Origin: a virus
Reading direction: 5' to 3' (one strand)
Length of the DNA: 42,558 nucleotides
IMG/VR virus record: IMGVR_UViG_3300047678_000310
Location: 1 to 42,558 of that record
Position numbers and translations under genes: made by a program. Positions 5,894 to 41,629 of the stretch are shown in pieces (positions within the stretch are counted from its first letter, which is position 1; the number at the start of each line of letters is the position of its first letter). Below the pieces are notes generated by a model. It was not told where the DNA came from, ran no database searches, and was given only the letters and a program-made list of their open reading frames with translations.

Positions 5894-5916
5894 TCCGGCG
5901 CGGTGTAGATGAAGGA

Positions 5917-5990
5917 TTGGCTGGGAGTCCCCGGGATCCGGCTCCCGTTGGCTTCCTTTCCCTGGCCGACCCTGGGGATTCCCAAGCCAA
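5917..5990 (+). terminator. long intergenic hairpin, possible terminator
   Basis: The arms ttggctgggagtccccgg (5917-5934) and cctggggattcccaagccaa (5971-5990) pair along most of their length with small bulges. They are followed by ttaat. With the hairpin after the capsid gene, this brackets 5405-5893 and may limit read-through into later genes. Confidence 0.45.
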
Positions 5991-6021
5991 TTAATCATTC
6001 CGAAAGAAAGTGACCAACATC

Positions 6022-6357: not shown

Positions 6358-6410
6358 TCGGGGGGAACCCTCGCAAACCCGCCCAAATCTGGCCAAAAAG
6401 GAACCTGATC

Positions 6411-7751
6411 ATGCGATCGATTTTTCAGCTCGTTTTCATTTTTCTTCTGATCATTCTCGGTGGATGCCTCGCTTTCGCCCAGGATGAGGGGGTTCAACGC
6501 AACATCATGATCGCTGTCCCCGGCCGGTCCGATCAGGTCAGCAAGGCCAGTATCTCCGACTCCAGCGGCCCCTACACTCGACTGAAGGTCGACGACATCA
6601 CTCTTTCCCGACATTCCAACGTCGACATCTGGACCGCCATCCAATCCAGCGGGGGGGCTTTGGTCTTCCCCACAACCCCCGGTCATACAGGCGCCTTGGT
6701 CCTTGGCGATATCGATGGGACCGCCGTGAATGATTATACCAAGATCCGCTATGATGTCGAGGACGGGGCTTCCGGGGCCGTCCTCGGGGATGGGCTTGCC
6801 AGCATTGACATGGCTGGAACACCCATTTTCGGGAGGTTGGTGATTCGTGTCGACGAAAATCGATCTTCGGGTATTTTGTTTGATCATCCGGGTTCTTCAA
6901 ACCTGAATGGAGCGGACATTGTGGCTCGGTCCAGCTTTCCCTCCGGTGATCAAGTCCTTTACAACATTGTGGTTGCTAATGTTGGCTCCGGAGAATTCCC
7001 CTCCGTCGGGTCTGGCGGTCTGAGCTTCCTATCCGCCGCCAATCCCTATGAAACCCCGAACCTGAATGTCACAGCCGGGGTCGCGAATTACAGCAATTAT
7101 TTGACAGCGACCAATGATTTCCGAACTAGCGAATCGATTGTTTTGGGAATCGGAGACTCGAGTTTCACTCTTTCTCAATCCCCCGAGTTTCACCAGCATC
7201 CTGCAATAATGATCCGGCCCCCCGACGACGATTCTGAAAGGATGGGGATTGCGTTCGATTACCGGGGGCGAAGTTCAAACACTGTCCAAGCCGTGAGTAT
7301 CGCGGATGCCGGAGATCCCGGGGTCAATCTATTCGGGATCCAGGCGATCGTGGATAATGGGGAAGGAACCACGAGTTCGGGGATTCTTTTATTCGCGTCC
7401 TCCGGTGGAACCACAACCCCGACTTTCAGCCTTACCTCCAGGTATCTCTACGTCAACCCAAGTGGGGGGGTCGAGGTTGGAGGAGACATTAAGACAACCA
7501 TCCCCGGCAAGGGAATTGTGATCAAGGGGGGCTCCAATTCAAAGGTGGGGCAAGGAACTCTTGATACCGGGACGGTCACCATCGCCACCACTGCAGTGAC
7601 CGCGAACTCTCGATTTATCCTGACCCCCAGGGAGTCTTTGGCGGGAACCCTTTATGTTGGGACCGTCACCCCCGGAACCTCGTTCGTGGTCAATTCAACG
7701 GAATCGGCTGATGGAATCCTTTTTGACTGGGTGATCCTGGAGGAGTCCTGA
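6411..7751 (+). CDS. fibre-like protein with N-terminal signal peptide
   Basis: The 446-residue product starts with a classic signal sequence: MRSIFQL, a hydrophobic core (VFIFLLIILGG, about 8-18), then C-LAFAQDE, with possible cleavage after AFA or lipidation at the Cys of LGGC. The rest is Gly/Ser/Thr-rich and beta-like. The C-terminal about 90 residues (GGDIKTTIPGKGIVIKGGSN..., TVTIATTAVTANSRFIL, then a TPGTSFVVNST segment) match the C-terminal domain seen in many prophage tail or capsid fibres. The SD aaaggaa supports the start at 6411. A secretion signal on a virion fibre is unusual. It could be an exported surface protein rather than a virion part, or the hydrophobic segment could serve in assembly. 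Unlike its neighbours, it uses many A/T-ending codons. Confidence 0.75.
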   Translation: MRSIFQLVFIFLLIILGGCLAFAQDEGVQRNIMIAVPGRSDQVSKASISDSSGPYTRLKVDDITLSRHSNVDIWTAIQSSGGALVFPTTPGHTGALVLGDIDGTAVNDYTKIRYDVEDGASGAVLGDGLASIDMAGTPIFGRLVIRVDENRSSGILFDHPGSSNLNGADIVARSSFPSGDQVLYNIVVANVGSGEFPSVGSGGLSFLSAANPYETPNLNVTAGVANYSNYLTATNDFRTSESIVLGIGDSSFTLSQSPEFHQHPAIMIRPPDDDSERMGIAFDYRGRSSNTVQAVSIADAGDPGVNLFGIQAIVDNGEGTTSSGILLFASSGGTTTPTFSLTSRYLYVNPSGGVEVGGDIKTTIPGKGIVIKGGSNSKVGQGTLDTGTVTIATTAVTANSRFILTPRESLAGTLYVGTVTPGTSFVVNSTESADGILFDWVILEES

Positions 7752-7816
7752 CCCCCCAACCTTCATTCTGGAAGGACCAACCTTGATGTGAATCCATTGG
7801 AGGGGGTTCGAGCTCG

Positions 7817-8119
7817 ATGTTAAAGAGACCTCCATCCCGTGAGAAAGTCAGGAGTAGTGTGGTGACTGAACGAGATTCTCAACTTCTCCGAGATATTCAT
7901 GAGCGGGTGGTTCGGCTGGATGAGAGGGGGGTCAGCAATGCCACCCGGATCATGGATCTCGAGCACACGGTTTTCGGCAACGGCCAGCCGGGTTTGAAAG
8001 TTTGGGTCGATCGCTTGATTGTTTTCATGACCAGTGCCAAATCGATTATCGGAATCTTGGGGGTCGCGGTGATTACTCTACTTGGCCGATGGTTTTACGA
8101 AGCTATCCTCAGAAACTAA
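7817..8119 (+). CDS. small membrane protein, coiled coil plus C-terminal TM (holin-accessory-like)
   Basis: This 100-residue protein has a charged N-terminal helical part (RDSQLLRDIHERVVRLDERG, about 19-38, coiled-coil-like) and one C-terminal membrane segment (about 75-92, SIIGILGVAVITLLG) followed by a short basic tail. This resembles XhlA-type or similar holin accessory proteins, though I cannot assign the family firmly. The start at 7817 has ggaggggg 10 bases upstream. Two more membrane proteins follow at once, suggesting a lysis-related group. Confidence 0.65.
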   Translation: MLKRPPSREKVRSSVVTERDSQLLRDIHERVVRLDERGVSNATRIMDLEHTVFGNGQPGLKVWVDRLIVFMTSAKSIIGILGVAVITLLGRWFYEAILRN

Positions 8120-8134
8120 GAAGGAACCCAGGGG

Positions 8135-8353
8135 ATGAAAAAGAAAAGCTGGAGAACGACGATCGGGGGAATCGTTTCCCTTATCGGTGGATTCATCCCC
8201 TTGGTCCCTTTTCCCGGGTCCGCCATTGTTGGACCCATCGTCATTGGGATCGGGGGGCTGATCACGGGGAGCCAGGCCAGGGACAACGGGGTTACCAGCG
8301 AGGAAGCCGGGGCCAAACAAGATCCCACGGTTTCGTTTCACAAGAAATACTGA
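8135..8353 (+). CDS. small membrane protein, holin-region family
   Basis: The 72 residues contain a basic N-terminus (MKKKSWRTT), one or two closely spaced hydrophobic segments (about 10-45, rich in Gly, Ile and Pro) and a hydrophilic tail with ARDNGVTSEEAG. That pattern resembles a common phage membrane protein found near lysis genes whose job is not established. SD aagga at 8121 is well placed. It is probably part of a lysis group with its neighbours. Confidence 0.65.
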   Translation: MKKKSWRTTIGGIVSLIGGFIPLVPFPGSAIVGPIVIGIGGLITGSQARDNGVTSEEAGAKQDPTVSFHKKY

Positions 8354-8377
8354 TCAAGTGGTTCGAGGAGTCTTGAA

Positions 8378-8785
8378 ATGCTGGAAAAAATCTTCGCAAA
8401 TGAGGCTTTTTTGAACCTCTTGGTGTCCCTGGTCTCGGCTTTGGGGTTGGGAATCCTTGGATACGTCGGAAAACTAGTCAGTTCACGAATTTCCGATCAG
8501 AAAAAGGCCGATCAGATCAATAACTTGGTGGCTGACGCCGTCTGGGGTGTGTATCAAGACTTCGTCAAATCGATCAAGGCGTCCTCGGTGGATGGGTCAC
8601 TGACCAAGGACGAGGCCCGGGCCGCCTTTATCCAAGCGCGGGATCGGGTTATCAAGGCCGCTGAAGAAAAAGGTCTCCCCCTGGTGGAGGACATCGGATC
8701 CCAGGGAATACAGCGACTGATCGAGAACACGGTCCAGGCTTTCAAGACTGGAAACGCTCCCTGGAGGGGTGGAAGCAACAAATGA
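8378..8785 (+). CDS. phage holin, LL-H type (superfamily 6-like)
   Basis: The 135-residue protein has one N-terminal membrane segment (about 10-33, LNLLVSLVSALGLGILGYVG) and a long charged helical cytoplasmic region (KADQINNLVADAVWGVYQDF... and DEARAAFIQARDRVIKAAEEKG), ending with a conserved-looking helix IQRLIENTVQAFK. This layout is that of the LL-H family of holins, which permeabilise the inner membrane at lysis. SD gaggag precedes the ATG. The stop overlaps the next start (ATGA, 8782-8785). No endolysin gene is visible beside it. Confidence 0.75.
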   Translation: MLEKIFANEAFLNLLVSLVSALGLGILGYVGKLVSSRISDQKKADQINNLVADAVWGVYQDFVKSIKASSVDGSLTKDEARAAFIQARDRVIKAAEEKGLPLVEDIGSQGIQRLIENTVQAFKTGNAPWRGGSNK

Positions 8786-26294: not shown

Positions 26295-26534
26295 TCACCC
26301 CCTGGAGGATTTCTGAAGTCTTACCACTTCCCCCGAAGATTTGAACCAAGGCGGTTGGTTGATTCCCTCGGGTTCTGGATCCCCATCAACTCGAAACATC
26401 GAATAACCGTATCTGCAATCCGGGCCCCCATTGGAGCGGGCAGCCCGAATCGATTCATCGTAGGAGGAACCCACTCCCCAGGCAAACGGGTCCCGGGGGC
26501 ACACGGCCAGGTAGATGGGTCGCGGACTAGGCAT
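26295..26534 (-). CDS. small protein, unknown
   Basis: The 79-residue product starts at 26534, overlapping the ThyX stop by 8 bases, the tight packing seen throughout this operon. It has IYLAVCPRDPFAWGVGSSYD and YGYSMFRVDGDPE, which read as a small folded alpha/beta protein of a kind often seen in phage operons. It has no known motif. It is the last gene before promoter module 1. Confidence 0.68.
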   Translation of the reverse strand: MPSPRPIYLAVCPRDPFAWGVGSSYDESIRAARSNGGPDCRYGYSMFRVDGDPEPEGINQPPWFKSSGEVVRLQKSSRG

Positions 26535-27414
26535 TGGGGGAGACAGGCTCCAGGAAGTCCTTCAGTTCGGGAATCCGCTCCAGGGCTTCCTGGAGTTCCC
26601 TCGGGGTCGGGTCCACCAATCCCCTTTGGAATCCATCCTTCGCCAGCCCCTCCCGAATATATCGAATCAGGGGAGCCGACATCTTAAACGCGTTCATTTC
26701 GAAATCCATAAACGCGCGGTAAGTCATGGGAACCCACCCCTTGACCAGTTCCAGGAGGACATCCGAATAGACCCGGATTTCATACTGGGCATGGGAGTCG
26801 GACCGCAGGCCGATGAAGTGGAGGAGATTGCGAAGGTCGCACTTCCAGAACCACTCGGTGTAGGTGGAAAGGGGAAGGTTGATCCGAGCCATCTCCCTGG
26901 AGATGTTGTTTCCCAAGAAATGTTGATAATCCCGAAACGCGGCTTGCTGGCCTATGTCGACCGCTTTCAGGAAATCGAACACCGAGTCCGGGCTCATGGA
27001 ATCTTCCGCCCTTCCCTGCTTGTTGGATGTCGATTGCTCCCGGACCTGCCCGGGTTCAGGAATGTAACACTCCTGGGGCAGCTCCCTGTATCGGCCACTC
27101 ATCTCGTTAAGTCCCGCGGTGCGATGGCGAACCATCTGTCGGGCCACGAAGATTGGGAGCTTCATGTGGACCACGAGCTCGGCCTGTTCGAAGGGAGACA
27201 TGTGGCGGTTGGCCATCAGGTATCGCACCAACCTTTCATCAGCTTCCTCCGTCCTGGGGGTGGCGGGATCCGCCTTGGTGCTGACCCTTGCGGATCGCAC
27301 AACGGATTGGTCTCCCCCCATGTAATCGACCAGCTCGATAAACCCCTTGTCCAAGAGGGGAATCCTTTCCCCGATGGATTCCTCCATGAAGGGGATGGTC
27401 AGGCGTGATCCCAT
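26527..27414 (-). CDS. thyX: flavin-dependent thymidylate synthase
   Basis: This enzyme makes dTMP from dUMP with FAD, NADPH and methylene-tetrahydrofolate. The 295 residues carry the ThyX signature RHRTAGLNEMSGRY at 96-109, plus HMSPFEQAEL at about 71-80 and LRNLLHFIGLRSD farther on. SD aaagga is 8 bases from the ATG. It overlaps the VRR-NUC gene by 16 bases. The phage also encodes a ThyA-family enzyme at 30297-31028, so this ThyX probably supplies dTMP and frees the other for a different substrate. Confidence 0.95.
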   Translation of the reverse strand: MGSRLTIPFMEESIGERIPLLDKGFIELVDYMGGDQSVVRSARVSTKADPATPRTEEADERLVRYLMANRHMSPFEQAELVVHMKLPIFVARQMVRHRTAGLNEMSGRYRELPQECYIPEPGQVREQSTSNKQGRAEDSMSPDSVFDFLKAVDIGQQAAFRDYQHFLGNNISREMARINLPLSTYTEWFWKCDLRNLLHFIGLRSDSHAQYEIRVYSDVLLELVKGWVPMTYRAFMDFEMNAFKMSAPLIRYIREGLAKDGFQRGLVDPTPRELQEALERIPELKDFLEPVSPNA

Positions 27415-27836
27415 GGCTTGATTCCTTTGTCCAACAGATTGGCCAGGGTGGATTTGTCACTCCACACCTGCGAAAATAGGCTTGAGGCGTGGAGCTGATC
27501 CCGGGTCATCCAAGGCTCCGAGTCGTAGACCTTCGCGTTCATGAAAAAGACTCGGATAGGTTCCTTGTGCATCTCCACCGCCACCACCAAGAAGATGGTC
27601 CGGCCACAAGCGACCCCCCTCCTGATCCAAGCCACCTGGGCTTCCCGAACAATCAGGGGAATTCGGCCATTGTCGAGATTCTCCTTGGAGACCTTCAGCT
27701 CCATCCAGTATTCCCGGCCCCTCCAGCAGATGTTAAGGTCGGGGACTCCAGGACTCATGTGGGTCTCCATCCGAACCACGTGGCAATCCCGGGGGAGCCG
27801 CTCCCTGATCCAGGGATGGACTTGTGTCTCTTTCAT
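27399..27836 (-). CDS. VRR-NUC domain nuclease
   Basis: The 145-residue product has the PD-(D/E)xK core VPDLNICWRG...YWMELKV with P32, D33, E46 and K48, typical of the VRR-NUC family (FAN1 and phage single-domain forms) that cut branched or Holliday-type DNA. The start at 27836 overlaps the polymerase stop by 4 bases (ATGA). Its place between polymerase and ThyX suggests a replication or recombination role. Confidence 0.85.
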   Translation of the reverse strand: MKETQVHPWIRERLPRDCHVVRMETHMSPGVPDLNICWRGREYWMELKVSKENLDNGRIPLIVREAQVAWIRRGVACGRTIFLVVAVEMHKEPIRVFFMNAKVYDSEPWMTRDQLHASSLFSQVWSDKSTLANLLDKGIKPWDHA

Positions 27837-29818
27837 TTCTTGTTCCTCCTGACCCAGGGAGCTTCCGCGGGCCCCTTCCATTTCTGTATCTGTCCCCAGC
27901 TTTCACCGACCTCGGCGTCACAAATGATTGGGACGTTCAACACAATCGAGTTTGTCATTATATCAACCAATTCTGCAAAGGCCGCTTCCCCCTCCTTGGT
28001 TCTGGGCTTGCTCCCGTCCAGCTCGTCGTGGACCGTCAGGAGGGGAACCCCTATGACATCGCAGACACCTGAATCCCAAATCTTCTTCATGCAATACTTC
28101 AAGGCGTCCGCGTTTCCCCCCTGGAGCAGGGCATTCAGAGCTTTGTGGGTCCCGGCCCTTTTCACCCTTCCATACTTGGTCTTGGCCTCTTCCAGCGGGA
28201 GGGGAATATCCCATCGATCATAAGGGATATACTCGTCGAACCTTCTTTTCCTTCCCAACAAGGTTTTGATGTAACCCCTCGAAGCCGCTTTCCTATCGGC
28301 CAGCTCGTATAACCCGCGGGCATACGGAGACATCTTGTCGAACTGGTCCAGCAACCTCCGACCCTCGTCCTCGGCCAGTCCCAGCTGGACGCACAGTTTC
28401 TTGATCCCCATCCCGTAGACGATCCCGAAGTTAATGATTTTGGCTTGCTTGCGCTTGACCCCTGCCAGCTCACTGGCCATTTGATGATAGTCGGTCCGCG
28501 GGTCCGTGCGATACCTGGACCATGCCGCGTCTGCTCCTGGCATCTTGGTCTCGTAGGCATAGTGGACCAGAAGCCTGTATTCCATCTGGCTCCAATCTAC
28601 TTTCCACCAATCCTCTCCATCCTCCGGGATGAACATCCCCCTGACCAGGGGCGCCAGTTCCTCGTCCCTGCTGGGAACCTGTTGGAGGTTGGGGTTAGTG
28701 CTGCTGAACCTCCCGGAGACCGTTCCCTCGTCAGCGGATCGAAGGGGATGGAGCTGGGAGTGGATTCGGGAGACTCCATTGACAGTGACTGAATGCTTGA
28801 ATAAACCGGACAAGAAAGTGTTGTCCTGTTTGTCGAACCTCCTGGCCTGGATCACCATCTTGCTAAGGGGATCTTCCTGGAACTGCAACCAGGTCTGTGT
28901 GAAGGAGGGAGATCCCGCCGGGGTCCGCCCATAGGGAACCTTCAAGTAATCGTAAGCCCAGACCATGTCATCCGAAGACCAGACATTGATCTCTTTTCCA
29001 AGAAGTTCCTTGATTTGGACAGTGACCCGATCCCTTCGAATTTTGAGTTCTTTCCTCAAAATCTCGGTCTTGTCCAGGTTGACACGTACTCCCCGCGTCC
29101 TCATTTTAAGCAACATCGGGATCAGTCCGCACTCCAATTCGAACAGATCCCAAAGCTCTTCCTTTTCCAACAAAGGTTTCTGCTTTTCGAAAATGGCAAG
29201 TGTGACCAGGGCATCTTGCTCGGCGTAGGGGCCGACGAACTTTGGGGGAAGCCGCCAAAGGTCTCCCTTCTTCAGGCTGGTATCCTTCTTGGTTCGGGAG
29301 CCTTTGGAATAAGCGGCCAGGGCGTGGTTCAGAACGGTCTCGTCCTTGCCTTCTCCCAGGTGGATCTGACCCAGGGTTTCAAGGCTGTAGGATTTTCGAT
29401 TTTCATTCAGGAGGGGTTCGGCATATTGGACGTCATAAATCTTCCCCGAGATAGAGACATTCTCCGTGGCCAGCCACTCCAGGTCATACAGGATATTGGC
29501 CCCGACCTTGATCTGCTCGGGCCGCCTCAATTCATCCCGCAACCATTTGCAAACCATTTTCTTATTGAGCATCCCCTCGTTTGACGCATGGCCAATCGGG
29601 AGGTAAGCTTTGAAACCATCGTCGGTGGCGATTGAGATCCCGGCCACCTGCCCATCCCTCCGCACTCCCCCGGGTCCCAGGGTTTTCAGGTGCGGGTCAT
29701 GGGTCTCCGTATCGACCGCTATGAAACGGGCCCTCGCCAGGCTTGGAAGAAACTCGGGGGGAGACCAATTGGACTCGGGTTCGAACAAGGGGAGCTGATG
29801 AAGGGGTTCGTATTTCAT
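27833..29818 (-). CDS. DNA polymerase I, family A
   Basis: This is probably the replicative polymerase. From the ATG at 29818, overlapping the deaminase stop (ATGA), the product is 661 residues. The 3'-5' exonuclease motifs are present: AVDTETHD (D36, E38), GANILYDLEWL and YAEQDALV. The polymerase motifs are VDWSQMEYR (D408, motif A), RKQAKIINFGIVYGM (motif B, R456, K460, F464, Y468) and TVHDEL (596-600, motif C). There is no 5'-3' exonuclease domain. Phe at the residue equivalent to E. coli 762 has been linked in phage surveys with fast, virulent replication. A longer frame to 29974 lies inside the deaminase gene and was rejected. Confidence 0.95.
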   Translation of the reverse strand: MKYEPLHQLPLFEPESNWSPPEFLPSLARARFIAVDTETHDPHLKTLGPGGVRRDGQVAGISIATDDGFKAYLPIGHASNEGMLNKKMVCKWLRDELRRPEQIKVGANILYDLEWLATENVSISGKIYDVQYAEPLLNENRKSYSLETLGQIHLGEGKDETVLNHALAAYSKGSRTKKDTSLKKGDLWRLPPKFVGPYAEQDALVTLAIFEKQKPLLEKEELWDLFELECGLIPMLLKMRTRGVRVNLDKTEILRKELKIRRDRVTVQIKELLGKEINVWSSDDMVWAYDYLKVPYGRTPAGSPSFTQTWLQFQEDPLSKMVIQARRFDKQDNTFLSGLFKHSVTVNGVSRIHSQLHPLRSADEGTVSGRFSSTNPNLQQVPSRDEELAPLVRGMFIPEDGEDWWKVDWSQMEYRLLVHYAYETKMPGADAAWSRYRTDPRTDYHQMASELAGVKRKQAKIINFGIVYGMGIKKLCVQLGLAEDEGRRLLDQFDKMSPYARGLYELADRKAASRGYIKTLLGRKRRFDEYIPYDRWDIPLPLEEAKTKYGRVKRAGTHKALNALLQGGNADALKYCMKKIWDSGVCDVIGVPLLTVHDELDGSKPRTKEGEAAFAELVDIMTNSIVLNVPIICDAEVGESWGQIQKWKGPAEAPWVRRNKK

Positions 29819-30297
29819 AGGAAGGTTCGCAAGGTCGGTCCGCCCCAGGAGGTGGATGTCGATTGCGTCCACTCTCGCCCAACCCGGGTCCAAAGCTCCT
29901 TGGCCTCGGGATGAGGATACTCCCTTATAAATATGATCCTTTTGCAAGAGGTGTTCAACAATAACTTGGTGCAAGTAATGCAGGGGGAGTCAGTGCAAAA
30001 GCAGGATTCAATAATTTGGCAATCTCGGCACTGGAGAAGGGCGTTCTGCTCGGCGTGTATGGACAAGCATTTCTCCAGTCCCTCCCCACTCCTCAATCCC
30101 GCTCCCGGACACGGATGGTCGATGCAATGAGGAAGGGATGCGGGGACTCCGTTGTAGCCAGTTGCGAGAACGTGGTTGAACTTATCGACCAACACGCACC
30201 CGACCCTCCTGCGGGGGCAGGTTCCCCGGATCGACACCAGTGATGCCATCATCAGAAAGTATTCGATCGAGGAGGGTCGGGCTTGTATTGGTTCCAT
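29815..30297 (-). CDS. dCMP deaminase
   Basis: This zinc enzyme turns dCMP into dUMP, the substrate for ThyX. The 160 residues have the cytidine/deoxycytidylate deaminase motifs HAEQNAL (His81, Glu83) and SPCITC (Cys106, Cys109). More Cys in the middle (PHCIDHPC, CRDC, SCFC) may form the second zinc site of ComEB-type enzymes. The start shares one base with the previous stop (TGATG). It sits next to a ThyA-like enzyme that may use dCMP as well, so the two would compete for substrate. Confidence 0.93.
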   Translation of the reverse strand: MEPIQARPSSIEYFLMMASLVSIRGTCPRRRVGCVLVDKFNHVLATGYNGVPASLPHCIDHPCPGAGLRSGEGLEKCLSIHAEQNALLQCRDCQIIESCFCTDSPCITCTKLLLNTSCKRIIFIREYPHPEAKELWTRVGREWTQSTSTSWGGPTLRTFL

Positions 30298-31028
30298 CAG
30301 AAGATCCCCTTGCCCGCGAGATCCTTCTTGTAGGCGTGGAGGGAACCCATGAAGTGGGTGAAGATCCCGGGCTTGATTCCCAGGAGGATCGCGACGTGGC
30401 GAAGGAGTTTGATCGTGAGCATCATGTCATACGGAAAGTGAGTGATGAAGTCACATGACCGCATGGTGTAGATCAAGTGGAGGACGTCCCCCTTCTGGTT
30501 CAGCGGGTTCGGGCGCCGCATGAACTGATAGGTGAGGGAGCACGGGATGCGATCCCGGCCACCCCAGTTCCTCATGTCTTGGTGTCGATCATACATGGTC
30601 ATGATCGCTTGCCGGGTGTAGGGGCGCTTGGTGAGCTCGGCGATAACCATCGGGAGCTGCTCCCTGAACCGCTCATTGTAGGTGTAGGAGAAGGTGTTGT
30701 CTCGAAGGAAGGGCTTCCAGATCTCGGGCCGGGTGATCCAGGCCAATCCCGGGTTGAGATAGTTGGGGTTGACGCGATCCTGGTGTTCCTGCTCCAGGTA
30801 GACAAGGGGGAGCTTGGCCAGCTCCAGGATGCCCTTGGCGTCCTCGTCCTCCGGGGAGTCGGTGTTGGAGATCTGATACCCGTAACCCATCAGCTCCATG
30901 GTATCGAAATCCTCGTTCCCCTCCACCACCTTGTCTTGCATCGAATGGGAGTGGACACGAATGCCCATTTCAAACAACTCCCTTTCGATCTCTTGATAAG
31001 CCTCGACTGGGCCTTTGAAAATCCGCAT
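30297..31028 (-). CDS. ThyA-family enzyme, possibly dCMP (hydroxy)methylase
   Basis: The 243-residue protein belongs to the thymidylate synthase fold: the catalytic Cys is in RIPCSLTYQF (C163), the phosphate-binding Arg in MRSCD (190-193), and the nucleotide-binding SLHAYKK (H231, Y233). In ThyA the RSCD...LPFN segment ends in Asn that selects dUMP; here it reads RSCDFITHFPYD, with Asp201 in that place. In T4-type dCMP hydroxymethylase and in engineered ThyA an Asp there favours dCMP. Because ThyX is also present, this is probably not the dTMP enzyme. Whether the product is 5-methyl- or 5-hydroxymethyl-dCMP cannot be told, and some phage dUMP enzymes may also carry Asp. SD aaggag lies upstream. 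Confidence 0.75.
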   Translation of the reverse strand: MRIFKGPVEAYQEIERELFEMGIRVHSHSMQDKVVEGNEDFDTMELMGYGYQISNTDSPEDEDAKGILELAKLPLVYLEQEHQDRVNPNYLNPGLAWITRPEIWKPFLRDNTFSYTYNERFREQLPMVIAELTKRPYTRQAIMTMYDRHQDMRNWGGRDRIPCSLTYQFMRRPNPLNQKGDVLHLIYTMRSCDFITHFPYDMMLTIKLLRHVAILLGIKPGIFTHFMGSLHAYKKDLAGKGIF

Positions 31029-31090
31029 ATCCTGTTGGTCTCCTTTTTCCCGATATATGTTACCCCAACCCTGCTCATCCCAAAAGGGAT

Positions 31091-32377
31091 TTATTCAGCG
31101 AGGGATTCGAGTCTTTTTGCGGAAACCTCCGATGGGATCTCCAATTGTTGGACGGCCGGGAGTTCCAATTTGAGGCCACTCCGAGCCAGGGCCAGGGCTT
31201 GGACCGAGCAACGCTTGTTGGTCCAGCAGTTCGAGCAAGCCAGGTGTTGCTGAGAGTAACCGATCTCTTTGCAGAACCACTGCTTGGCTTCGGTGACATA
31301 GGGGTTTTCTTTCAGAATCCTGGTGGAAGCCCCCTTGATCGGTTTCCCGAGAATCCCCCTCATGGCTTCCTTGGCCGCGTGCGTGCAGAACTGGATCGGC
31401 ATCGCTTTCCCGGTCTGCTTGATCAACTTGTTATTGCGATCGTGGACCCAGGTTCCGTCGCTTTCAAGGACTTCCCCGACAAACACGAAATCGTCAGGGA
31501 ATCCCTGGATGCGGGCCCGTTCCCGGATAGACATCGGGAGGTTGGTGAGGGGGTGGATCAAAGCCCCCCCGTGGATCACATGGCATGATCGATCCCAGTA
31601 TCCCTTGACAGTGGCGAACCTCCGCTTGATCTCTCCACTCCGGGAGACATATTGAAAGTAATAACCCTGGGGCTTGGAGGAGAGATGTTCCTGAACCTCG
31701 GCCCATGTGTGACGCTCCCCGTGCTTGCGGATGGAGGAACCCCTGGAGGCATTGCTCTTCAGGGAGTGGGGGATGTGGTTGGGAATCCCCTGGTCGAATT
31801 GGTTGTAGATGTCTCCAAGGATGTCGGAAACTTTCAGCCCCTCGTTGGACTTTTCCCTGGCCTGGAACACGAACCCCTCTGACTTCAATGCCCCGATCAT
31901 GAACATCCTATTTCGGCCCTTCTGAACATTCCCGTATCCCCAATTGGAAACCCATTCGGGAAACAAATCATAATCGGGGAGCATCTCGACATACTTCTCC
32001 ATCGGGAATGCGATGAAGGACATGGGAAGATCATCCATGACAAAATATCGAGGTTTGAGTTCCTTAACCATGTTGATGAACAGGGGGATGTCCCCGGGGT
32101 CGTTGGTCATGGAGGCGCGGTCCGGGTTCAGCTGGCTGTATTTCCCACACTCCGGATGCCCCATGGCCAGCTCGATCTCGTCCGGGATCAAGCCTATTGC
32201 ATCCATCATCCTCTTGACCATGAAAGAGTTTTTGAAATTCCGTTGGAAAGTCCCGGTGTGATAATAGGTCCGCCATTCGATGTTTCCAATGACATGGAAT
32301 CCGGCCTTTTTGGCTCCGATCAGCATGGAGCCGATCCCACAAGTAAGGCCGATTGCAACAGGCTTGGTGGCATTCAT
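31091..32377 (-). CDS. C5-cytosine methyltransferase-like enzyme B, with C-terminal Cys cluster
   Basis: The 428 residues have the C5-methyltransferase plan: motif I (AIGLTCGIGS), catalytic Cys77 in GHPECGKYS, motif VI as MDDLP (115-117) instead of ENV, VQKGRNRMFMIG, RERARIQGFPDDF and GKAMPIQF (motif X). A C-terminal module has C369, C381, C384 and C390 (C-x11-C-x2-C-x5-C), a spacing seen in zinc or Fe-S sites. It is closely related to the upstream gene along the whole length. The start overlaps an SD-sequestering hairpin, so translation may depend on the upstream gene. A 4-bp-loop inverted repeat (atccc-tttt-gggat) follows the stop. Confidence 0.85.
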   Translation of the reverse strand: MNATKPVAIGLTCGIGSMLIGAKKAGFHVIGNIEWRTYYHTGTFQRNFKNSFMVKRMMDAIGLIPDEIELAMGHPECGKYSQLNPDRASMTNDPGDIPLFINMVKELKPRYFVMDDLPMSFIAFPMEKYVEMLPDYDLFPEWVSNWGYGNVQKGRNRMFMIGALKSEGFVFQAREKSNEGLKVSDILGDIYNQFDQGIPNHIPHSLKSNASRGSSIRKHGERHTWAEVQEHLSSKPQGYYFQYVSRSGEIKRRFATVKGYWDRSCHVIHGGALIHPLTNLPMSIRERARIQGFPDDFVFVGEVLESDGTWVHDRNNKLIKQTGKAMPIQFCTHAAKEAMRGILGKPIKGASTRILKENPYVTEAKQWFCKEIGYSQQHLACSNCWTNKRCSVQALALARSGLKLELPAVQQLEIPSEVSAKRLESLAE

Positions 32378-32393
32378 CGAGGTATTTCCTCGA
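32377..32393 (-). promoter_or_regulatory. hairpin covering the SD of methyltransferase B
   Basis: On the minus strand tcgagg-aaata-cctcga forms a 6-bp stem that includes the SD (gagg) and ends at the A of the start codon. The gene starts 32 bases after the stop of methyltransferase A. Ribosomes finishing A could melt the stem, which would couple B to A. Confidence 0.5.
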
Positions 32394-32409
32394 AAAGACG
32401 ATGGGTTGA

Positions 32410-33753
32410 TCAGGTTGTTTTCGGACTCTTGGCTCGGGGAGTCTTTTCCTTGGCCGGGGTTCCCACCAGGACCAGGGTCTCCGACTTTGCAATCTTGCGG
32501 GTTGGCTTGGATGCCACCTCCTTCTGTGTCAATCCCACCGGCAACTCCAGGGGAACCCGAGCCATCGCGATGGACTTAACCGAGCACGCATCCCCGACCC
32601 AACACTGGGAACAAGCGGCGGCTTGGCAGGAGTAACCGATCTCTTTGCAATACCACTGCTTGGCTGCGGTGACATACTCGTTGGAGGGAAGGATGCGCAA
32701 AGGGGGCCCGAGGGGGGGCTTCTTGGTCAGTCCCCGCATAACCTCGGTCGCCGCGTAATTGCAGAACTGGATCGGCATCGCTTTCCCGGTCTGCTTGACC
32801 ATTTTCGAGTTTTTCTCATGGACCCAGGTTCCATCGGGTTCGACCACCTGGCCCACGAACTCAAAGTCGTCGGGGAACCCCTGGATGCGGGCACGCTCCC
32901 GGATAGACAACGGGAGGTTGGTCAAGGCATGAATGATCGGGTCTCCACCATGAATGACGTGGGACGGCTTGTCCCAGTGGGTTTTGACGGTGGAGGGACG
33001 GCACTTCTCCACTCCATCCGAACCCATGTATTTGAAGGTGTATCCGGGATGCTTGGTCGAGAGATGGTCCCGGACTTCCTTCCAGGTGTGTTTCTCCCCG
33101 TGCTTGCGGATGGAGGAACCCTTGGCTGCATAGGTGGTGAGGGAGTGGGGTTGATGGTTCAGCATCCCCTTGGGGAACTGGTTGAACAGGTCGGAGAGAA
33201 TGTCGGAAACCTTCAACCCTGGGTCTTTCTCCATCGGACGGAACGTAAACTTCTCCGACTTCAGGGAGCCAATCATGAACATCCGCTTGCGACCCTTCTG
33301 AACATTCCCGTATCCCCAATTGGAAATCCACTCGGGAAATAGGTCATACTCCGGAAGGGCTTCCGCATACTTCTCCATCGGGAATGCGATGAAGGACATG
33401 GGAAGATCATCCATGACAAAATATCGAGGTTTGAGTTCCTTAACCATGTTGATGAACAGGGGGATGTCCCCGGGATCATTGACCATGTCCTTGCGATAGG
33501 GATTGAGCTGGCTGTATTTCCCACACTCCGGATGCCCCATGGCCAGCTCGATCTCGTCCGGGATCAAGCCTATTGCATCCATCATCTTCTTCACCATAAA
33601 CCCCTTGGTGAAGTTTTTCTCGAACGTTCCGGTGTGGTAATAGGTGCGCCATTCAATGTTGCCAACGATCTCAAACCCGGCTTGCTGGGCCCCCACCAAC
33701 ATGGAGCCGATCCCGCACGTGAGTCCGATGGCCAAGGGCTTGGAGTTCCTCAT
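32410..33753 (-). CDS. C5-cytosine methyltransferase-like enzyme A, with C-terminal Cys cluster
   Basis: The 447-residue paralogue has the same motifs at the same residues as enzyme B: Cys77 in GHPECGKYS, DDLP at 115-118, GRKRMFMIG, RERARIQGFPDDF, GKAMPIQF and the four-Cys cluster C369, C381, C384, C390, plus one more Cys at 376. It has a longer basic C-terminal tail (KSETLVLVGTPAKEKTPR). The catalytic PPC is PEC and the ENV is DDL, both shared with its twin, so the changes are ancestral to the pair and not decay. The ATG overlaps the previous stop by one base (TGATG). The target-recognition regions differ most around residues 165-260. Confidence 0.87.
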   Translation of the reverse strand: MRNSKPLAIGLTCGIGSMLVGAQQAGFEIVGNIEWRTYYHTGTFEKNFTKGFMVKKMMDAIGLIPDEIELAMGHPECGKYSQLNPYRKDMVNDPGDIPLFINMVKELKPRYFVMDDLPMSFIAFPMEKYAEALPEYDLFPEWISNWGYGNVQKGRKRMFMIGSLKSEKFTFRPMEKDPGLKVSDILSDLFNQFPKGMLNHQPHSLTTYAAKGSSIRKHGEKHTWKEVRDHLSTKHPGYTFKYMGSDGVEKCRPSTVKTHWDKPSHVIHGGDPIIHALTNLPLSIRERARIQGFPDDFEFVGQVVEPDGTWVHEKNSKMVKQTGKAMPIQFCNYAATEVMRGLTKKPPLGPPLRILPSNEYVTAAKQWYCKEIGYSCQAAACSQCWVGDACSVKSIAMARVPLELPVGLTQKEVASKPTRKIAKSETLVLVGTPAKEKTPRAKSPKTT

Positions 33754-34460
33754 CAGTAGTTGCTCCCCTGGCGGAACCGATTCACTGTCTCCTTCTTCAG
33801 ATAGGCCAAGGCCAGAAGGTCCATGTTGACTCCCGCCTGGACGCAGGTCAGAAGGAACCGACCCCAGACATTACGGAGGATGGCTTGGAACTTGGGGATG
33901 TCGGTCATCATCTGGGTTTGTTTCCAAGGCTTGTTTTTCAGGCAATTCATCGCCTGGCCCAGTGCCTCCACGGTGGACCAGGCACAAAGTCGGACCCGGA
34001 TCACGTCGATGAGGGGTCCAGTCGAAAGGAGAAGGGGGTCGTTGGTCACTCCCCCCACGCACAGGGCCTTGAGTCCATTGGTGTCCTCCACCAGCCCCTC
34101 GGAGGGGTCAAGGATCAAGTCCCGTGGTCCCAGCCCCGAGAGGATGGTCAGCTCCACGAGGAAGTGGAGTGCGTCAGCAATTTCCTCCACCACGTGGATG
34201 AAGTCGGGCTCTTCGTCATAGTAACACTCGAAGGCTTCGGCCAGTTCCTCCGTCACGCGCCAGGCGAAATCCTTCAACCTGGCCTGGCCCTTGGCATCGT
34301 GGAGATCGACGGGGACATCCTCGGTCTGGACCAGGCCGGATCGGGATTCGATCGAATGGTATTTTTCCATCAGTCCCAGTTGCTTTTGGAAAATGACATC
34401 GAGGGGGTCACGTCCCTTCAGAATCTCTGCGACCTCATCGGTCACGTGTTTGATGTTCAC
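33753..34460 (-). CDS. all-alpha NTP pyrophosphatase (dimeric dUTPase/MazG-like)
   Basis: The 235 residues carry the EExxE...ExxD metal-binding pattern of this fold: EELAE (71-75) and EEIAD (92-96). The C-terminal LAYLKKETVNRFRQ resembles the Asn/Arg end of dimeric dUTPases. It may remove dUTP, or a nucleotide that competes with a modified one. The start is a GTG at 34460 with a perfect SD (aaggagg, 9 bases upstream). It overlaps the AsnB-like gene by 26 bases and the methyltransferase A start by one base. Confidence 0.82.
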   Translation of the reverse strand: MNIKHVTDEVAEILKGRDPLDVIFQKQLGLMEKYHSIESRSGLVQTEDVPVDLHDAKGQARLKDFAWRVTEELAEAFECYYDEEPDFIHVVEEIADALHFLVELTILSGLGPRDLILDPSEGLVEDTNGLKALCVGGVTNDPLLLSTGPLIDVIRVRLCAWSTVEALGQAMNCLKNKPWKQTQMMTDIPKFQAILRNVWGRFLLTCVQAGVNMDLLALAYLKKETVNRFRQGSNY

Positions 34461-35919
34461 GGTTGAAAACCTCCTTGAATCGATTCATGAGATGGTATCT
34501 CCAGGCTTCTCCCCCCTGGAGGACGTTCTTGCTTTTCAGGGGAACCTTCTTTCGATCCACCACCTCATCGGGGAGCCGATTCCGGAAAGTGTCCCTGAGA
34601 AATTTCTTGTTGATTCTTTCCGAGTAAGGAAGTTGCAAAGCGAGTGAACAAACCTCCCAGGCCAGGAAGGGGCTTCGCATCTCCACCGTGTGAGCCATCA
34701 TCAGCTTGTCCAGCCTCGGGAGATGATACTGGACCAGCTCATCAAAAACATCACTGTTCTGGGCATCGAAATGATTCTGCCTCCGGTATCCCCCGAAAAG
34801 TTCATCGGCCCCATCCCCTCCCAGGACCACATGGAACCCCTGGCCCTTGACGGCCTGCCCCAGGGTCCATTGGGGGATCATTGACCCCAGGTCCACCGGG
34901 CTTTCATTCCGCAGGAGGATTGCATCTAGGTCAGGCTCCTGGGCGGAGTGGAGCTTGACCAGGTTGATGTCGATCCCGAGGGTGTTGGCCTTGAGCTGGT
35001 CCACCACCCCGAGGTTCTCCAGCTCTTCCTCCCCCACGTGGAAAAGAGTGATTGGGCGAGTTTCGATCAATCCCTTGATCATCCCCTCAATGACCAGGTA
35101 AAGGATGATCGAACTGTCCAATCCACCAGAGAACAGAATCGCAATGGGAAGGGCCGAGGTGGACATTCTCCTGCAAACCGATCCCAGGAGGAATTGATAA
35201 AGCATCTCATGGGTTGGCTCCGCCCCTAGCGGGGGGATGTTGCAATAGCGGGCGTATTGGCTCGGGACTCCCGGACCCTGGGAGACCAGGACGTGCCCCG
35301 CCGGGATCTTGCGGATGTTTCTGAAGGGGGTCCGGGAGGGGTCGATTGAATACCCGAACTTCCCGACATGGGCGAAATACCCGTCATCAAATTTCAAGTC
35401 ACCCATCGGTTCGAATATCAACAAGGGAGAAATCTCCGAGGATATTGCCCCCGACTGGATGTGATGATAAAGGGGTTTTTTTGCAAGGGGGTCCACCATT
35501 GCAGCCGTTTCCCCCCGCTGGCCGCAATGGACCACCGACCAGAACCCATCCCATCCCTGGAGCTCGTCCCAGGGCGGACTCGGCTTGTGTTTGAAGTAGA
35601 TGGCATCCCCGAAGAACTTGCTGGCCAGGGCCCGCGTGTCGGAGGGGGAGTCGGGACTGACGTCCTTATAGTTCACCAGCTCCCCAACAAAGGCGAAAGC
35701 CGACCCTCCCGGGATTTTCACGGGCTGATCCCCCTCCCCATCGGCCAATCCGACAATGGGGAGCCTCACGTGACCCAGGCCGTAGGTGGAGGTGACCAGG
35801 GACTCCCCCGGTAAGGTTCCCCGATGTCGAAGCCGCTGGTTCATAAGGTCCAGCACGGCTTCAGGGTCCAGCCTCCATTGGCGGATCAACCTGGGGTCGA
35901 TGTAGTTAAGCCCGCACAT
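34435..35919 (-). CDS. AsnB-like glutamine-dependent amidotransferase
   Basis: The 494-residue protein has a class II glutamine amidotransferase domain with the nucleophile Cys2 after the initiator Met (MCGLNYID), RHRGTLPGE and FVGELVN, then an ATP-binding synthetase domain with SGGLDSS (264-270) and GGDGADELFGGYRR. It may make asparagine for the host cell, or, in this setting, amidate another carboxylate. The usual Asp after RHRGP is replaced by TLPGE, so the glutaminase site may differ. SD gaggggaag supports the ATG at 35919 and a 14-base overlap with the previous gene. The frame opens earlier at 36009, but Cys2 fixes the true start. Confidence 0.85.
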   Translation of the reverse strand: MCGLNYIDPRLIRQWRLDPEAVLDLMNQRLRHRGTLPGESLVTSTYGLGHVRLPIVGLADGEGDQPVKIPGGSAFAFVGELVNYKDVSPDSPSDTRALASKFFGDAIYFKHKPSPPWDELQGWDGFWSVVHCGQRGETAAMVDPLAKKPLYHHIQSGAISSEISPLLIFEPMGDLKFDDGYFAHVGKFGYSIDPSRTPFRNIRKIPAGHVLVSQGPGVPSQYARYCNIPPLGAEPTHEMLYQFLLGSVCRRMSTSALPIAILFSGGLDSSIILYLVIEGMIKGLIETRPITLFHVGEEELENLGVVDQLKANTLGIDINLVKLHSAQEPDLDAILLRNESPVDLGSMIPQWTLGQAVKGQGFHVVLGGDGADELFGGYRRQNHFDAQNSDVFDELVQYHLPRLDKLMMAHTVEMRSPFLAWEVCSLALQLPYSERINKKFLRDTFRNRLPDEVVDRKKVPLKSKNVLQGGEAWRYHLMNRFKEVFNREHQTRDR

Positions 35920-36391
35920 GAAGCTTCCCCTCAAGCAGGAGGATGGCAAGGGCGCAATAGTTGAACAGATCCTTGAGGGTATCCTCGACTGACTCGTCAG
36001 AGGATTCAAGACCCAATCGAGTCATGGTCAGGACACGGTTGATCTTGTCCAGGCAACGGACCGATATGCCCAGGCACCCTGTCTCCAGGAGAACCTCACA
36101 ACCATACTTCTGATTCTTCTCCTGGCAAAGGTTCAGGCAATCCAGGACGGTCGCTGATGTGTAGAGGAGAAGGTGCTCGGCCCTGGCCAGGTATCCCCTC
36201 CACTCCTTCAGGCGATCCCCCTTGGTAAGGGACTCGGCGAAAGGGACCGTGTAGACCAGGGACTCGAGGCGGAAGGTCAGGAGGAAGGAGGATCGAAGAT
36301 CCCCCAGGATCTTCATCACGTCCTTCTTCGAGGGGGCCGGCTCCGGGAGGGGTCGTTCAAGCTCTCGGTGGATACTCGAAAAATCTAACAT
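35906..36391 (-). CDS. DUF1599 / Nmad1-like protein
   Basis: The true start is the ATG at 36391 (SD aaaggaag), giving 161 residues. The segment CLNLCQEKNQKYGCE, then ISVRCLDKINRVLTM and DESVEDTLKDLFNYCALAILL, matches the pattern of DUF1599, also called nucleotide modification associated domain 1. These small helical proteins accompany base-modification genes in phages. Its position at the head of the modification operon agrees. The frame extends upstream to 37147, but that part lies across a terminator and the next gene and was discarded. Confidence 0.75.
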   Translation of the reverse strand: MLDFSSIHRELERPLPEPAPSKKDVMKILGDLRSSFLLTFRLESLVYTVPFAESLTKGDRLKEWRGYLARAEHLLLYTSATVLDCLNLCQEKNQKYGCEVLLETGCLGISVRCLDKINRVLTMTRLGLESSDESVEDTLKDLFNYCALAILLLEGKLHVRA

Positions 36392-38176: not shown

Positions 38177-39142
38177 TCAGTTCACCCCCGCCATCTGAAT
38201 CGCCACCTCAAGGGCGCTGCGCTTGATCTCGGCCCTGCGGCCGAACCAGGCTTCCTGGAGCGCCGCGGAGCGGACGTTGCCGAGCCTGTGATCCACCACG
38301 AAGGTGACCGCGTTGAAGGCTCCCCAGAGGGTCCCCTTGGAAGACTTGAGCTTGGACCCGGGGCCGGTTTCCATCGCGTCCAGGCAAAGCTCCACAGGCT
38401 TCGTGATCTTCTCCGCGTCAACCGGGGGCCGGGTCTCCGACGGCTTGAAGACCTTCTGGAAATACTCCAGCTCCTGGCCGTCCTTGAGGGAGCGCTTGCT
38501 AAGGAGCTCGGCCGCCAGCTTGAACTCCCGGATCTGTCCCTGGGAGATCCCCAGGGTCTCCTCCGCCAGCTTCTTGGCCGAGTCGTCGAACTGGCGGACG
38601 TGGGGCATGCGGAAGGTCTGGGAACCCTGGCCGCGGAGCTTGCTCCCCAGAGCCATCGTGAGGGTGTTCCAACAAACCACCCTGATCGGAGTGAACTGGA
38701 TCACCAGGGCGTGGCCGGCCTTGTGCGGCTGGCACATGAGGATGTAACCCTCGACCCTGTCGGCCTTGCCCAGGGTGAACCCCTCCCCGATCTTGGCCAG
38801 TCCCCAGATGAACTTTCCATCGTGGAGGGAGCCGGCCGTCTCCATCGTCATGTGGCCTGCGTCCACGAAGCGCTTGAAGAAGTCGAAAGCCTCGGCGTTC
38901 TGGACGGGCTTGTACATTCCCCCGCAGGTGGAGAGAACCTTGTTGTCGGAGTCCCGGACCAGGGCGAAGTTGTCGGGAACCTCCGAGCCGTCCTTCAGGA
39001 AGGTCTGGAGCTTGTTGACCTTCCAGCCCAGTCCCGCGGCCTTCATCATCTCGTGCGCCTTGAGGTCGGGATCAACCTCGACCCCCAGGCCGTGCCAGGG
39101 CTTCTCGCCCGTCCAGGCCGTTGTTTCGATTGCGTGTGCCAT
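38177..39142 (-). CDS. DUF932 phage/plasmid-like protein
   Basis: The 321-residue product starts with MAHAIETTAWTGEKPWHGLG, the characteristic opening of this family (TIGR03299), and has VKFDPxRVVCWNTL-like RVVCWNTLTMAL farther on. The role is unknown; the family occurs in phages and plasmids. The frame extends upstream to 39274, but the SD aaggag 9 bases from 39142 sets the start. It is in the unit headed by promoter module 3. Confidence 0.88.
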   Translation of the reverse strand: MAHAIETTAWTGEKPWHGLGVEVDPDLKAHEMMKAAGLGWKVNKLQTFLKDGSEVPDNFALVRDSDNKVLSTCGGMYKPVQNAEAFDFFKRFVDAGHMTMETAGSLHDGKFIWGLAKIGEGFTLGKADRVEGYILMCQPHKAGHALVIQFTPIRVVCWNTLTMALGSKLRGQGSQTFRMPHVRQFDDSAKKLAEETLGISQGQIREFKLAAELLSKRSLKDGQELEYFQKVFKPSETRPPVDAEKITKPVELCLDAMETGPGSKLKSSKGTLWGAFNAVTFVVDHRLGNVRSAALQEAWFGRRAEIKRSALEVAIQMAGVN

Positions 39143-39245
39143 GATAGCGTCTCCTTCGTCGACTGGGGGGAGGGTGGCGGGAGGATAAACCCCCCTGGCG
39201 CTCCCCTCGCTCCCCCTTGTCACTCCCTCGGAATCGAGGGAAGGG

Positions 39246-39352
39246 GGAAGGGTCTCCCTTCTGGTAAGGACCATTCCAAGGTTCCCGCGGGGAACCCTTC
39301 TGGTTGGTCCTTTTCCAAGGAGACCCTTCCTCCGCCCCTTGCGGGAGGAAGG
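39246..39352 (-). promoter_or_regulatory. nested inverted repeats in the 220-base leader of the DUF932 gene
   Basis: An outer stem (ggaagggtctcc 39246-39257 with ggagacccttcc 39319-39330), a middle stem (aaggacca 39266-39273 with tggtcctt 39305-39312) and an inner one (ggttccc-gcg-gggaacc, 39280-39296) form one large symmetrical structure. A separate hairpin ccttcctcc/ggaggaagg (39325-39333, 39344-39352) overlaps the outer arm, so the two are mutually exclusive. It looks like an attenuator or leader switch. Confidence 0.5.
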
Positions 39353-40087: not shown

Positions 40088-41629
40088 TCAATCCTCCACA
40101 CGATAGGAGCGGGAGGTTTGGTTATCGACCAGAATCAGGTTCTCCTTGGCCCGGGTGGCCCCGACGTAATAAACCCTGTGCTCCCCGTCGGGGTTCCCTT
40201 GAAACCCTCGATATGTCGCAAACGACATATCCGGGATCAGGACCACCGACTCGCACTCCCCGCCCTTGGCCCCATGGATGGTCGAAAGAATGATTCGGGG
40301 TTCCTCCGACATCGACCCCTCCCCCTGAACGACTTTCTTGATGTAGTTGCGATCCTTCGAATCGATCTTGGACAAGGCATCTTCCCAGGGAGCCGCGGGA
40401 TTGGCCAGGAGTCCGCCCCTTGCCACCAGGTCTTTCAACCCCCATTCCTCCCGAGAGCTGGCCGAGGGCATTGTTTTGAATCCCCGCTTGACCCCCTTCC
40501 CGACCTCCATCATCGTGTACATGGCCTTGACTTCGTCCGTCTCCAGTCTCCCACCCTCTTTCAACCGATCCCAGTATCGGATGGCGCGGACAACCTCGGA
40601 CTTTCGGGGAGACCAGGATTTCGACTCATAGGACCAGCCCAGGGTCCGGCAGACCTGCTCGGCCTGTTCGAGGAGATAGTAATTCCTGGCCAATACCAGC
40701 CATTTCCCCCTCCCCATGTCAATGTTCCGAATGGAGGGAATCCGGCTGACACTCCCCTCGCAATCCCGGGGATGCCAGGTCTTGTCGAACCGTTGGCTGA
40801 TTCGAGAACTTATCTTGTCAGCAACCTTGAACACGGAGCGTGGGAGCCGGTAAGATTTCTCCAACACCTTGTATCCCCGCTCCCTCAACTTCAGAAAGGT
40901 TGCAATGTCGGCCCCGGCCCATCCATAGATGGATTGATCATCGTCCCCGGCCAAGTGGGATCTTTCACAATTCCGGACCATCATCCCAACCACCCTCCAC
41001 TGGAGGCGAGTGAAATCCTGGGCTTCGTCCAGGAACAACCTCTCCAGCCGCGGGACCGACATCACCCCCTGGCCATCCAGGAACCTCTGCATCATGTCGG
41101 TGTAATCAACCAGGTCGTTTCTTTTCTTGAACATCTCGTAAGTGTCCACGAAAAGCTTGAATCGGGATTCGGATATGTCGGGGTCTTGCAACTTCCTGAA
41201 ATACTCCATCGGGTCCAAGGTCTTGTTCCTGGCCACGTCATAGTAGAAGAACAACCTGTCTCCGATCTCGCTCCCGGTGGACACCTCTCCATCGTCCCGT
41301 TGGATTCCAAAGGAAAGTCGGACCCCCATCAGATCGGCCACCTGCTTGTTGTGCTTCGAGGTAACAACCTCCCCCCGGGAAAGTCCCAGGCATCTGAACA
41401 CGATGGAGTGGAGGGTGCGGAACCAGGGAAGATCCTCCGATGCCAGGTTGAACCTGGCCATGGCTCGGTCCCTGGCTTCCTCCGTGGCCTTGCGGGTGAA
41501 GGACAGGAACCCGATCCTGCTGGGATGAACTCCCCGCTCCATGTCCCTTTGAACCTCCGACAATAAGGCTGTTGTCTTTCCAGTCCCGGGTGGACCGATA
41601 AGGACATTCAGATCGACTTTATTTCCCAT
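40088..41629 (-). CDS. UvrD/Rep-like DNA helicase
   Basis: The 513-residue SF1A helicase has GPPGTGKT (12-19, motif I), FLDEAQDFT (motif II), GDDDQSIYGWAGAD (motif III), STIHGAKGGE (motif V) and VYYVGATRAKENL (motif VI). It probably unwinds DNA in replication or recombination. The start lies 15 bases after the HslV-like stop. The helicase stop overlaps or touches the small winged-helix gene. Confidence 0.93.
   Translation of the reverse strand: MGNKVDLNVLIGPPGTGKTTALLSEVQRDMERGVHPSRIGFLSFTRKATEEARDRAMARFNLASEDLPWFRTLHSIVFRCLGLSRGEVVTSKHNKQVADLMGVRLSFGIQRDDGEVSTGSEIGDRLFFYYDVARNKTLDPMEYFRKLQDPDISESRFKLFVDTYEMFKKRNDLVDYTDMMQRFLDGQGVMSVPRLERLFLDEAQDFTRLQWRVVGMMVRNCERSHLAGDDDQSIYGWAGADIATFLKLRERGYKVLEKSYRLPRSVFKVADKISSRISQRFDKTWHPRDCEGSVSRIPSIRNIDMGRGKWLVLARNYYLLEQAEQVCRTLGWSYESKSWSPRKSEVVRAIRYWDRLKEGGRLETDEVKAMYTMMEVGKGVKRGFKTMPSASSREEWGLKDLVARGGLLANPAAPWEDALSKIDSKDRNYIKKVVQGEGSMSEEPRIILSTIHGAKGGECESVVLIPDMSFATYRGFQGNPDGEHRVYYVGATRAKENLILVDNQTSRSYRVED

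Follow-up and report, generated by a model that had tools for sequence, protein, structure and literature searches.

The stretch of DNA analysed here, called the window in the following, is the 42,558-base IMG/VR virus record IMGVR_UViG_3300047678_000310. Its plus strand carries tail and tape-measure genes, and its minus strand carries a block of ten genes in which adjacent members overlap or are separated by no more than 62 bp (Table 1). At the center of this block stand MT1 and MT2, two tandem genes for altered C5-methyltransferase (MTase)-fold enzymes, in company with genes for an AsnB-like amide synthetase, a nucleoside triphosphate (NTP) pyrophosphohydrolase and a ThyA-like enzyme. The block is very probably an operon for a modified cytosine, and the module that it represents appears to be a genuine form of phage cytosine hypermodification that is widespread and, as it seems, has not been described before. 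The first-pass annotation had described a single overlapping operon, and the gene spacing agrees with this. Family searches also confirmed its labels for AsnB, the NTP pyrophosphatase, the C5-MTase pair, dCMP deaminase, DNA polymerase I (PolA) and ThyX. Two labels stood in part. The name DUF1599/Nmad1 scored below the Pfam cut-off, although a PHROG match speaks for it and homologues lie upstream of AsnB also in L002, L053, L063 and L077; the name VRR-NUC found no supporting match in the Pfam search, although there is a weak match to an endonuclease PHROG.

Table 1. Minus-strand genes of the block and its upstream neighbours (positions in the window)
Feature	Position	Strand	Matches and residues
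UvrD-like helicase, upstream of block	40088..41629	-	7e-30
DUF932 protein, upstream of block	38177..39274	-	9e-41
Nmad1/DUF1599-like small protein, first gene of block	35906..36391	-	PF07659 21 bits (cut-off 25); phrog_1485 4e-14
AsnB-like glutamine amidotransferase/amide synthetase	34435..35919	-	PF00733 Asn_synthase 1.5e-35; PF13522 GATase_6 3.8e-7
All-alpha NTP pyrophosphohydrolase (dUTPase_2), candidate dCTPase/dUTPase	33753..34460	-	PF08761 30 bits (cut-off 22.9)
MT1, altered C5-methyltransferase-fold enzyme	32410..33753	-	PF00145 DNA_methylase 3.8e-21; C77, E76, D115, K324
MT2, tandem paralogue of MT1	31091..32377	-	DNA_methylase 7.7e-19
ThyA-like, predicted dCMP hydroxymethylase	30297..31028	-	Thymidylat_synt 5.3e-14; D201, S164, D193
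dCMP deaminase	29815..30297	-	PF00383 4.9e-17; phrog_174 7e-37
Family A DNA polymerase (PolA)	27833..about 29974	-	PF00476 DNA_pol_A 3.4e-55
VRR-NUC-like small nuclease, tentative	27399..27881	-	phrog_2165 4.6e-19; phrog_93 endonuclease 6e-5
ThyX, flavin-dependent thymidylate synthase	26527..27414	-	TIGR02170 1.5e-56, 191 bits (cut-off 87.9)
Open frame of 79 amino acids overlapping the ThyX end	26295..26534	-	matches no family

Is such a combination of genes peculiar to the window? Viral contigs that encode relatives of MT1 or of the ThyA-like protein were collected, and the loci of these relatives were searched with the window proteins and with profiles built from them. About 45 other uncultured phage contigs carry an NTP pyrophosphatase, an altered C5-MTase, a ThyA-like protein, dCMP deaminase and PolA, usually led by AsnB, and the order repeated among the relatives is (kinase)-(AsnB)-NTP-MT-ThyA-dCMP deaminase-PolA. 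Because this order recurs in dozens of contigs at roughly 25-56% protein identity, it is not a product of chance. The ThyA-like gene lies within 3.6 kb of the MTase gene, often with an overlap of a few bases, in 44 of the 48 newly fetched family loci, a few of which are nearly identical to one another; three of the remaining four are on contigs of 5-10 kb. As controls served 29 loci of ordinary viral C5-MTases and 79 genome loci; ThyA was nearby in 3 of the former and in none of the latter, and AsnB was near none of these 108. Searches in other collections were mostly empty: window DNA had no match in annotated phages, 50,697 annotated phage records held no MTase relative above about 27% identity, and the cellular genome search returned just one near relative of the MTase, whose contig is recorded as viral too (L128, identical to L087). 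A scan of viral contigs with the AsnB protein alone gave no relatives, whereas those with the MTase and ThyA did. It might be argued that nothing unusual is encoded here, that is, MT1 and MT2 are protective 5-methylcytosine MTases, AsnB is metabolic, and ThyA, dCMP deaminase and the NTPase are nucleotide-metabolism genes that happen to be neighbours. The fold and the Pfam family of MT1 and MT2 are those of C5-MTases, and both gene classes invoked are frequent in phages. However, the linkage of the MTase to ThyA and AsnB across dozens of divergent contigs argues against such an ordinary explanation, as do three features described below, namely family-wide loss of Glu119 and Asn304 in the MTases, the association of AsnB with MTase residue 80, and the Asp177 of the ThyA-like proteins encoded nearby. 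We regard it as improbable.

All of the 57 aligned members of the ThyA-like family have Asp177, Asp169 and Ser/Thr147 (E. coli numbering; D201, D193 and S164 in the window protein) together with the catalytic Cys and a conserved Glu, and T4 gp42 in the same alignment has the identical residue set. The dCMP-type Asp that had been pointed out in the window protein is thus common to every aligned family member. Since these members agree with T4 gp42 wherever a residue is diagnostic, the enzyme likely produces 5-hydroxymethyl-dCMP, and the gene probably encodes a dCMP hydroxymethylase. An AlphaFold2 (AF2) model of the protein (pLDDT 94) had the CMP hydroxymethylase MilA as its best match in a fold search. 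In the MetaGPA study, Asp177 and residue 147 best separated modified-cytosine contigs from unmodified ones, and the usual neighbours in the former were dCMP deaminase and a pyrophosphohydrolase (PMC8670742). The dCTPase gp56 of T4 and the NTP gene of the window match the same Pfam model (PF08761), and ThyX with dCMP deaminase can provide dTMP separately. Therefore, the residue set around Asp177, the fold and profile matches and the MetaGPA precedent (PMC8670742) lend good support to the earlier proposal of a modified-cytosine operon in which a ThyA-like step takes place at the nucleotide level, and the phage DNA likely contains 5-hydroxymethylcytosine (hmC). Function as a canonical thymidylate synthase is disfavoured by Asp177 and Ser147. 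Another candidate is a flavin-dependent dCMP 5-hydroxylase like AfhB of phage HY126, in which case the MTase would alkylate 5-hydroxycytosine, comparable to CmoB acting on 5-hydroxyuridine (ho5U). AfhB structures (9iqu/9iqc) are indeed the best sequence matches of the ThyA profile in PDB (1.4e-21) and rank 7 and 10 in the fold search. However, the profile also matches MilA and T4 gp42, and AfhB has Asn at position 169, where the 57 members and T4 gp42 have Asp, so that this candidate is disfavoured and appears highly improbable. As a separate observation, contig L090 (2500-3270, 9263-9958) has, in addition to the Asp version, a second and weak ThyA-family match with Asn at position 177.

If the ThyA-like enzyme makes a hydroxymethylated nucleotide, what can the MTases do? 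By their sequences, MT1 and MT2 are members of a new, phage-only MTase family. Forty-nine family MTases were aligned jointly with 119 ordinary C5-MTases; the numbering of the HhaI reference used is consistent with the residues that PMC12783734 names. The family retains Cys81, R163 and R165 (RxR), GxG, the aromatic stacking residue and, in 47/49, the ribose-binding Glu40, while motifs I, III, IV, VI and X are remodelled in comparison with M.HhaI and M.HaeIII. At the position of E119, Asp is found in 47 of the 49, in place of the Glu present in all 119 ordinary enzymes. At the position of N304, Lys or Arg is found in 48/49 (Arg in only 4) versus 2/119. In addition, P80 is replaced, D42 is changed to Arg and D60 is lost. 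In MT1 and MT2 motif VI reads DDL instead of the standard ENV, and motif X has Lys instead of Asn. The altered motifs noticed at first in these two proteins are therefore a quantifiable property of the family. An AF2 model of MT1 (pLDDT 90) has HaeIII, HhaI and CmoX (8yf3) among its fold matches. Identity between the two paralogues is 83% over the N-terminal catalytic part and 57% over the presumed target-recognition region, and this divergence suggests that they may act in different sequence contexts; an independent tandem pair occurs in L066. Both ordinary MTases with Lys at N304 belong to one locus, L099 (7746-10167), where tandem C5-MTases with Ser at 80 and a retained Glu119 adjoin two ThyA-like genes and dCMP deaminase; these are possible intermediates between ordinary MTases and the altered family. 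It is also to be noted that most family MTases, MT1 and MT2 included, have a C-terminal Cys-rich tail (YC...C..CW....C), possibly a metal site, which is absent in L004, L085, L086, L089, L090 and L092.

The basic residue at N304 recalls the CmoX system. Arg350 of CmoX and the engineered N374K of M.MpeI meet the carboxylate of carboxy-S-adenosylmethionine (Cx-SAM) at this position (PMC12783734), and by analogy residue 304 is a candidate for holding a carboxylate in the altered family too. The family could not have surfaced in the CmoX/CmoY screen, because the screen demanded SPPC and Arg350 (PMC12783734). On this ground one can imagine a CmoX/CmoY-like route on plain cytosine, in which MT1 and MT2 use Cx-SAM from host CmoA to form 5-carboxymethylcytosine, AsnB converts it to 5-carbamoylmethylcytosine, and ThyA serves some other purpose. 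Host CmoA was sufficient for CmoX activity in E. coli (PMC12783734), and in Streptomyces phage TurkishDelight an AsnB of the glutamine amidotransferase (GATase) type lies between a CmoX-type MTase and CmoA, which means that such an AsnB is able to accompany both. However, CmoA gave no match in 13 and 38 family- or ThyA-bearing records, although the same model finds the CmoA of TurkishDelight (1.3e-26), and ThyA is absent from both CmoX phages checked (S-B43 and TurkishDelight). Moreover, CmoX keeps Pro80, Glu119 and Asp60 but the altered family does not, and C5 would be blocked if hmC replaces cytosine. MT1 and MT2 have the basic residue at N304 that marks CmoX, and neither SPPC/Arg350 nor an adjoining phage CmoA. 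We think this route distinctly unlikely; a plain Cx-SAM system had been our first idea, and it lost weight through the absence of CmoA, the lack of ThyA in the two CmoX phages checked and the extra motif changes.

A further hint comes from AsnB, whose model PF00733 was matched in 25 of 38 family contigs when whole contigs were searched. The Cys after the N-terminal Met and the PP-loop SGGLDS are conserved in six aligned homologues, while the glutaminase-site motif NGE is replaced by V78-G79-E80 in all six, so the glutaminase may be altered and the ammonia source may differ from that of AsnB. Presence of AsnB is coupled to MTase residue 80, just before the catalytic Cys: it is Glu or Asp in 35/35 MTases with AsnB, and Ser, Lys or Tyr in 10/10 without. 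Among 332 columns this is the only one in which the two sets share no residue. On a tree built without column 80, AsnB presence and the acidic residue switch state three times each, and all three independent pairs are concordant. Because residue 80 sits in the active site and tracks AsnB, it is suggested that AsnB works ahead of the MTase or at the same step and changes what the MTase binds. An acidic residue could accept a hydrogen bond from a carboxamide, and Ser, Lys or Tyr could donate one to a carboxylate.

How can these pieces be put together? A dCMP hydroxymethylase would be pointless in a conserved module whose MTase carried out plain C5 methylation, which points to a new chemistry on hmC, and since the MTase-fold enzyme and ThyA occur together in about 45 loci, the former probably acts on the product of the latter. 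The first-pass annotation had placed the modification either at the nucleotide level by ThyA or in DNA by the methyltransferases; this alternative is probably wrong. In the pathway that we favour, the NTP pyrophosphohydrolase would likely remove dCTP and dUTP like T4 gp56, the ThyA-like enzyme would likely convert dCMP to 5-hydroxymethyl-dCMP like T4 gp42, and hmC would likely be built into DNA by PolA while ThyX and dCMP deaminase make dTMP. MT1 and MT2 may then flip out hmC in DNA, with attack of the conserved Cys on C6 in a remodelled pocket, and may extend the substituent at C5 by a group that bears a carboxylate or an amide. The AsnB-like enzyme may turn a carboxylate into a carboxamide with ammonia from glutamine, most likely ahead of the MTase reaction or during it; an amide made by AsnB, as proposed earlier, is plausible and has a precedent in CmoX/CmoY (PMC12783734). 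We give about an even chance to hmC DNA that is tailored by the MTase fold and AsnB to an amide-bearing cytosine; action of the MTases on hmC seems to us an evenly balanced matter, and the arguments for an amide as the product are just as finely poised. The complete chain, with every step as drawn, is doubtful. Only tentatively do we put forward a more specific form, in which the MTases natively use hmC and not cytosine, attach a side chain preamidated by AsnB without Cx-SAM from a phage CmoA, and read acid versus amide through residue 80, the product being then methylated in some phages by an N-methyltransferase described below.

There is also a form of the favoured pathway in which S-adenosylmethionine (SAM) is not the alkyl donor: the MTase-fold enzymes would condense hmC and a small nucleophile (an amino acid, or the amide of one in phages that have AsnB) with the help of the Cys-C6 adduct, and Lys304 would serve as the general acid when hydroxide leaves. 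In vitro, an ordinary C5-MTase, M.SssI, couples hmC in DNA to thiols (PMC7176277). Lys304 accompanies ThyA and not CmoA, and residue 80 is a hydrogen-bond acceptor with AsnB and S/K/Y without it, as condensation would have it. On the other hand, Glu40 and the aromatic stacking residue are kept, suggesting an adenosine-type cofactor, and literature searches found no natural enzyme of such a kind. We hold condensation to be unlikely.

Several observations weigh against an hmC-based pathway with coupled MTase and AsnB. L070 (G025), a 66-kb contig and the fourth MTase locus without nearby ThyA, has the MTase and AsnB and no PF00303 match. In the 82-kb contig L008 (G007), conversely, kinase, AsnB, NTP pyrophosphatase, an N-methyltransferase and ThyA are present (4526-8714) while the contig lacks C5-MTases altogether, so that AsnB is independent of the altered MTase there, unless the contig is incomplete. 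Many family contigs are fragments. As for residue 80, the link was noticed post hoc from the alignment, with the all-column scan in its support; three independent pairs do not suffice for significance (sign test p = 0.25); and one outlier, L098, excluded from the 35/10 count, has Asp at 80 without AsnB.

Some neighbouring genes may add further steps. A SAM-binding N-methyltransferase with an NPPY motif (DPTxGxGTT; NNPPY in most) is found beside or fused to the MTase at AsnB-positive loci only, and its stand-alone form, that of L008 included, is likewise restricted to AsnB-positive loci. The fusions (L060 7980-10286, L075 7986-10241) lie in two places of the tree. This enzyme, which is not encoded in the window, might methylate the amide or cytosine N4. 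A gene of the uracil-DNA-glycosylase superfamily directly precedes the MTase in L007 (6257-6790, PF03167) and also, by hidden Markov model matches, in L069, L072 and L077; its substrates may be modified bases or unmodified ones. In several related contigs, too, the UvrD-like helicase that precedes the window block together with a DUF932 protein lies close to the module. Promoter and terminator scans gave nothing clear above shuffled controls.

If the favoured pathway is true, these phages have new enzymes for attaching amide handles to DNA, likely as a new way round host restriction. No description of a ThyA-MTase-AsnB module, that is, of an hmC-type ThyA combined with altered MTases and an amide-forming enzyme, was found in the literature; an earlier mention in the phage base-modification survey of Iyer (2013) is possible. 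Each part has known counterparts. MT1 and MT2 share the fold, the catalytic Cys, RxR, GxG and the ribose-binding Glu with M.HhaI and M.HaeIII. With the CmoA/CmoX/CmoY system for 5-carboxymethylcytosine of Synechococcus phage S-B43 the module shares the basic residue at N304 and adjoining genes for an AsnB-type amide synthetase and a MazG-type pyrophosphatase. It differs by having a ThyA-like predicted dCMP hydroxymethylase and no CmoA, a glutaminase domain in the window AsnB, and, in MT1 and MT2, HPEC instead of SPPC, Lys324 instead of Arg and Asp instead of Glu in motif VI. TurkishDelight gp123-125 also place a GATase-type AsnB, 25% identical to that of the window, beside a C5-MTase; however, gp123 is of the CmoX type (SPPC, Glu, Arg) and gp125 is CmoA. 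The MetaGPA contigs with ThyA and a 5hmC carbamoyltransferase have the same core of Asp177 ThyA, dCMP deaminase and NTP pyrophosphohydrolase, but their tailoring enzyme is a TobZ-like carbamoyltransferase, unlike that of the window (PMC8670742). The T4 pathway to hydroxymethylcytosine likewise has a ThyA-family enzyme with Asp177, Asp169 and Thr/Ser147 and a pyrophosphatase of the dUTPase_2 family; in the window operon no glucosyltransferase is seen, and MTase-fold and AsnB genes stand there instead, together with a polymerase of family A.

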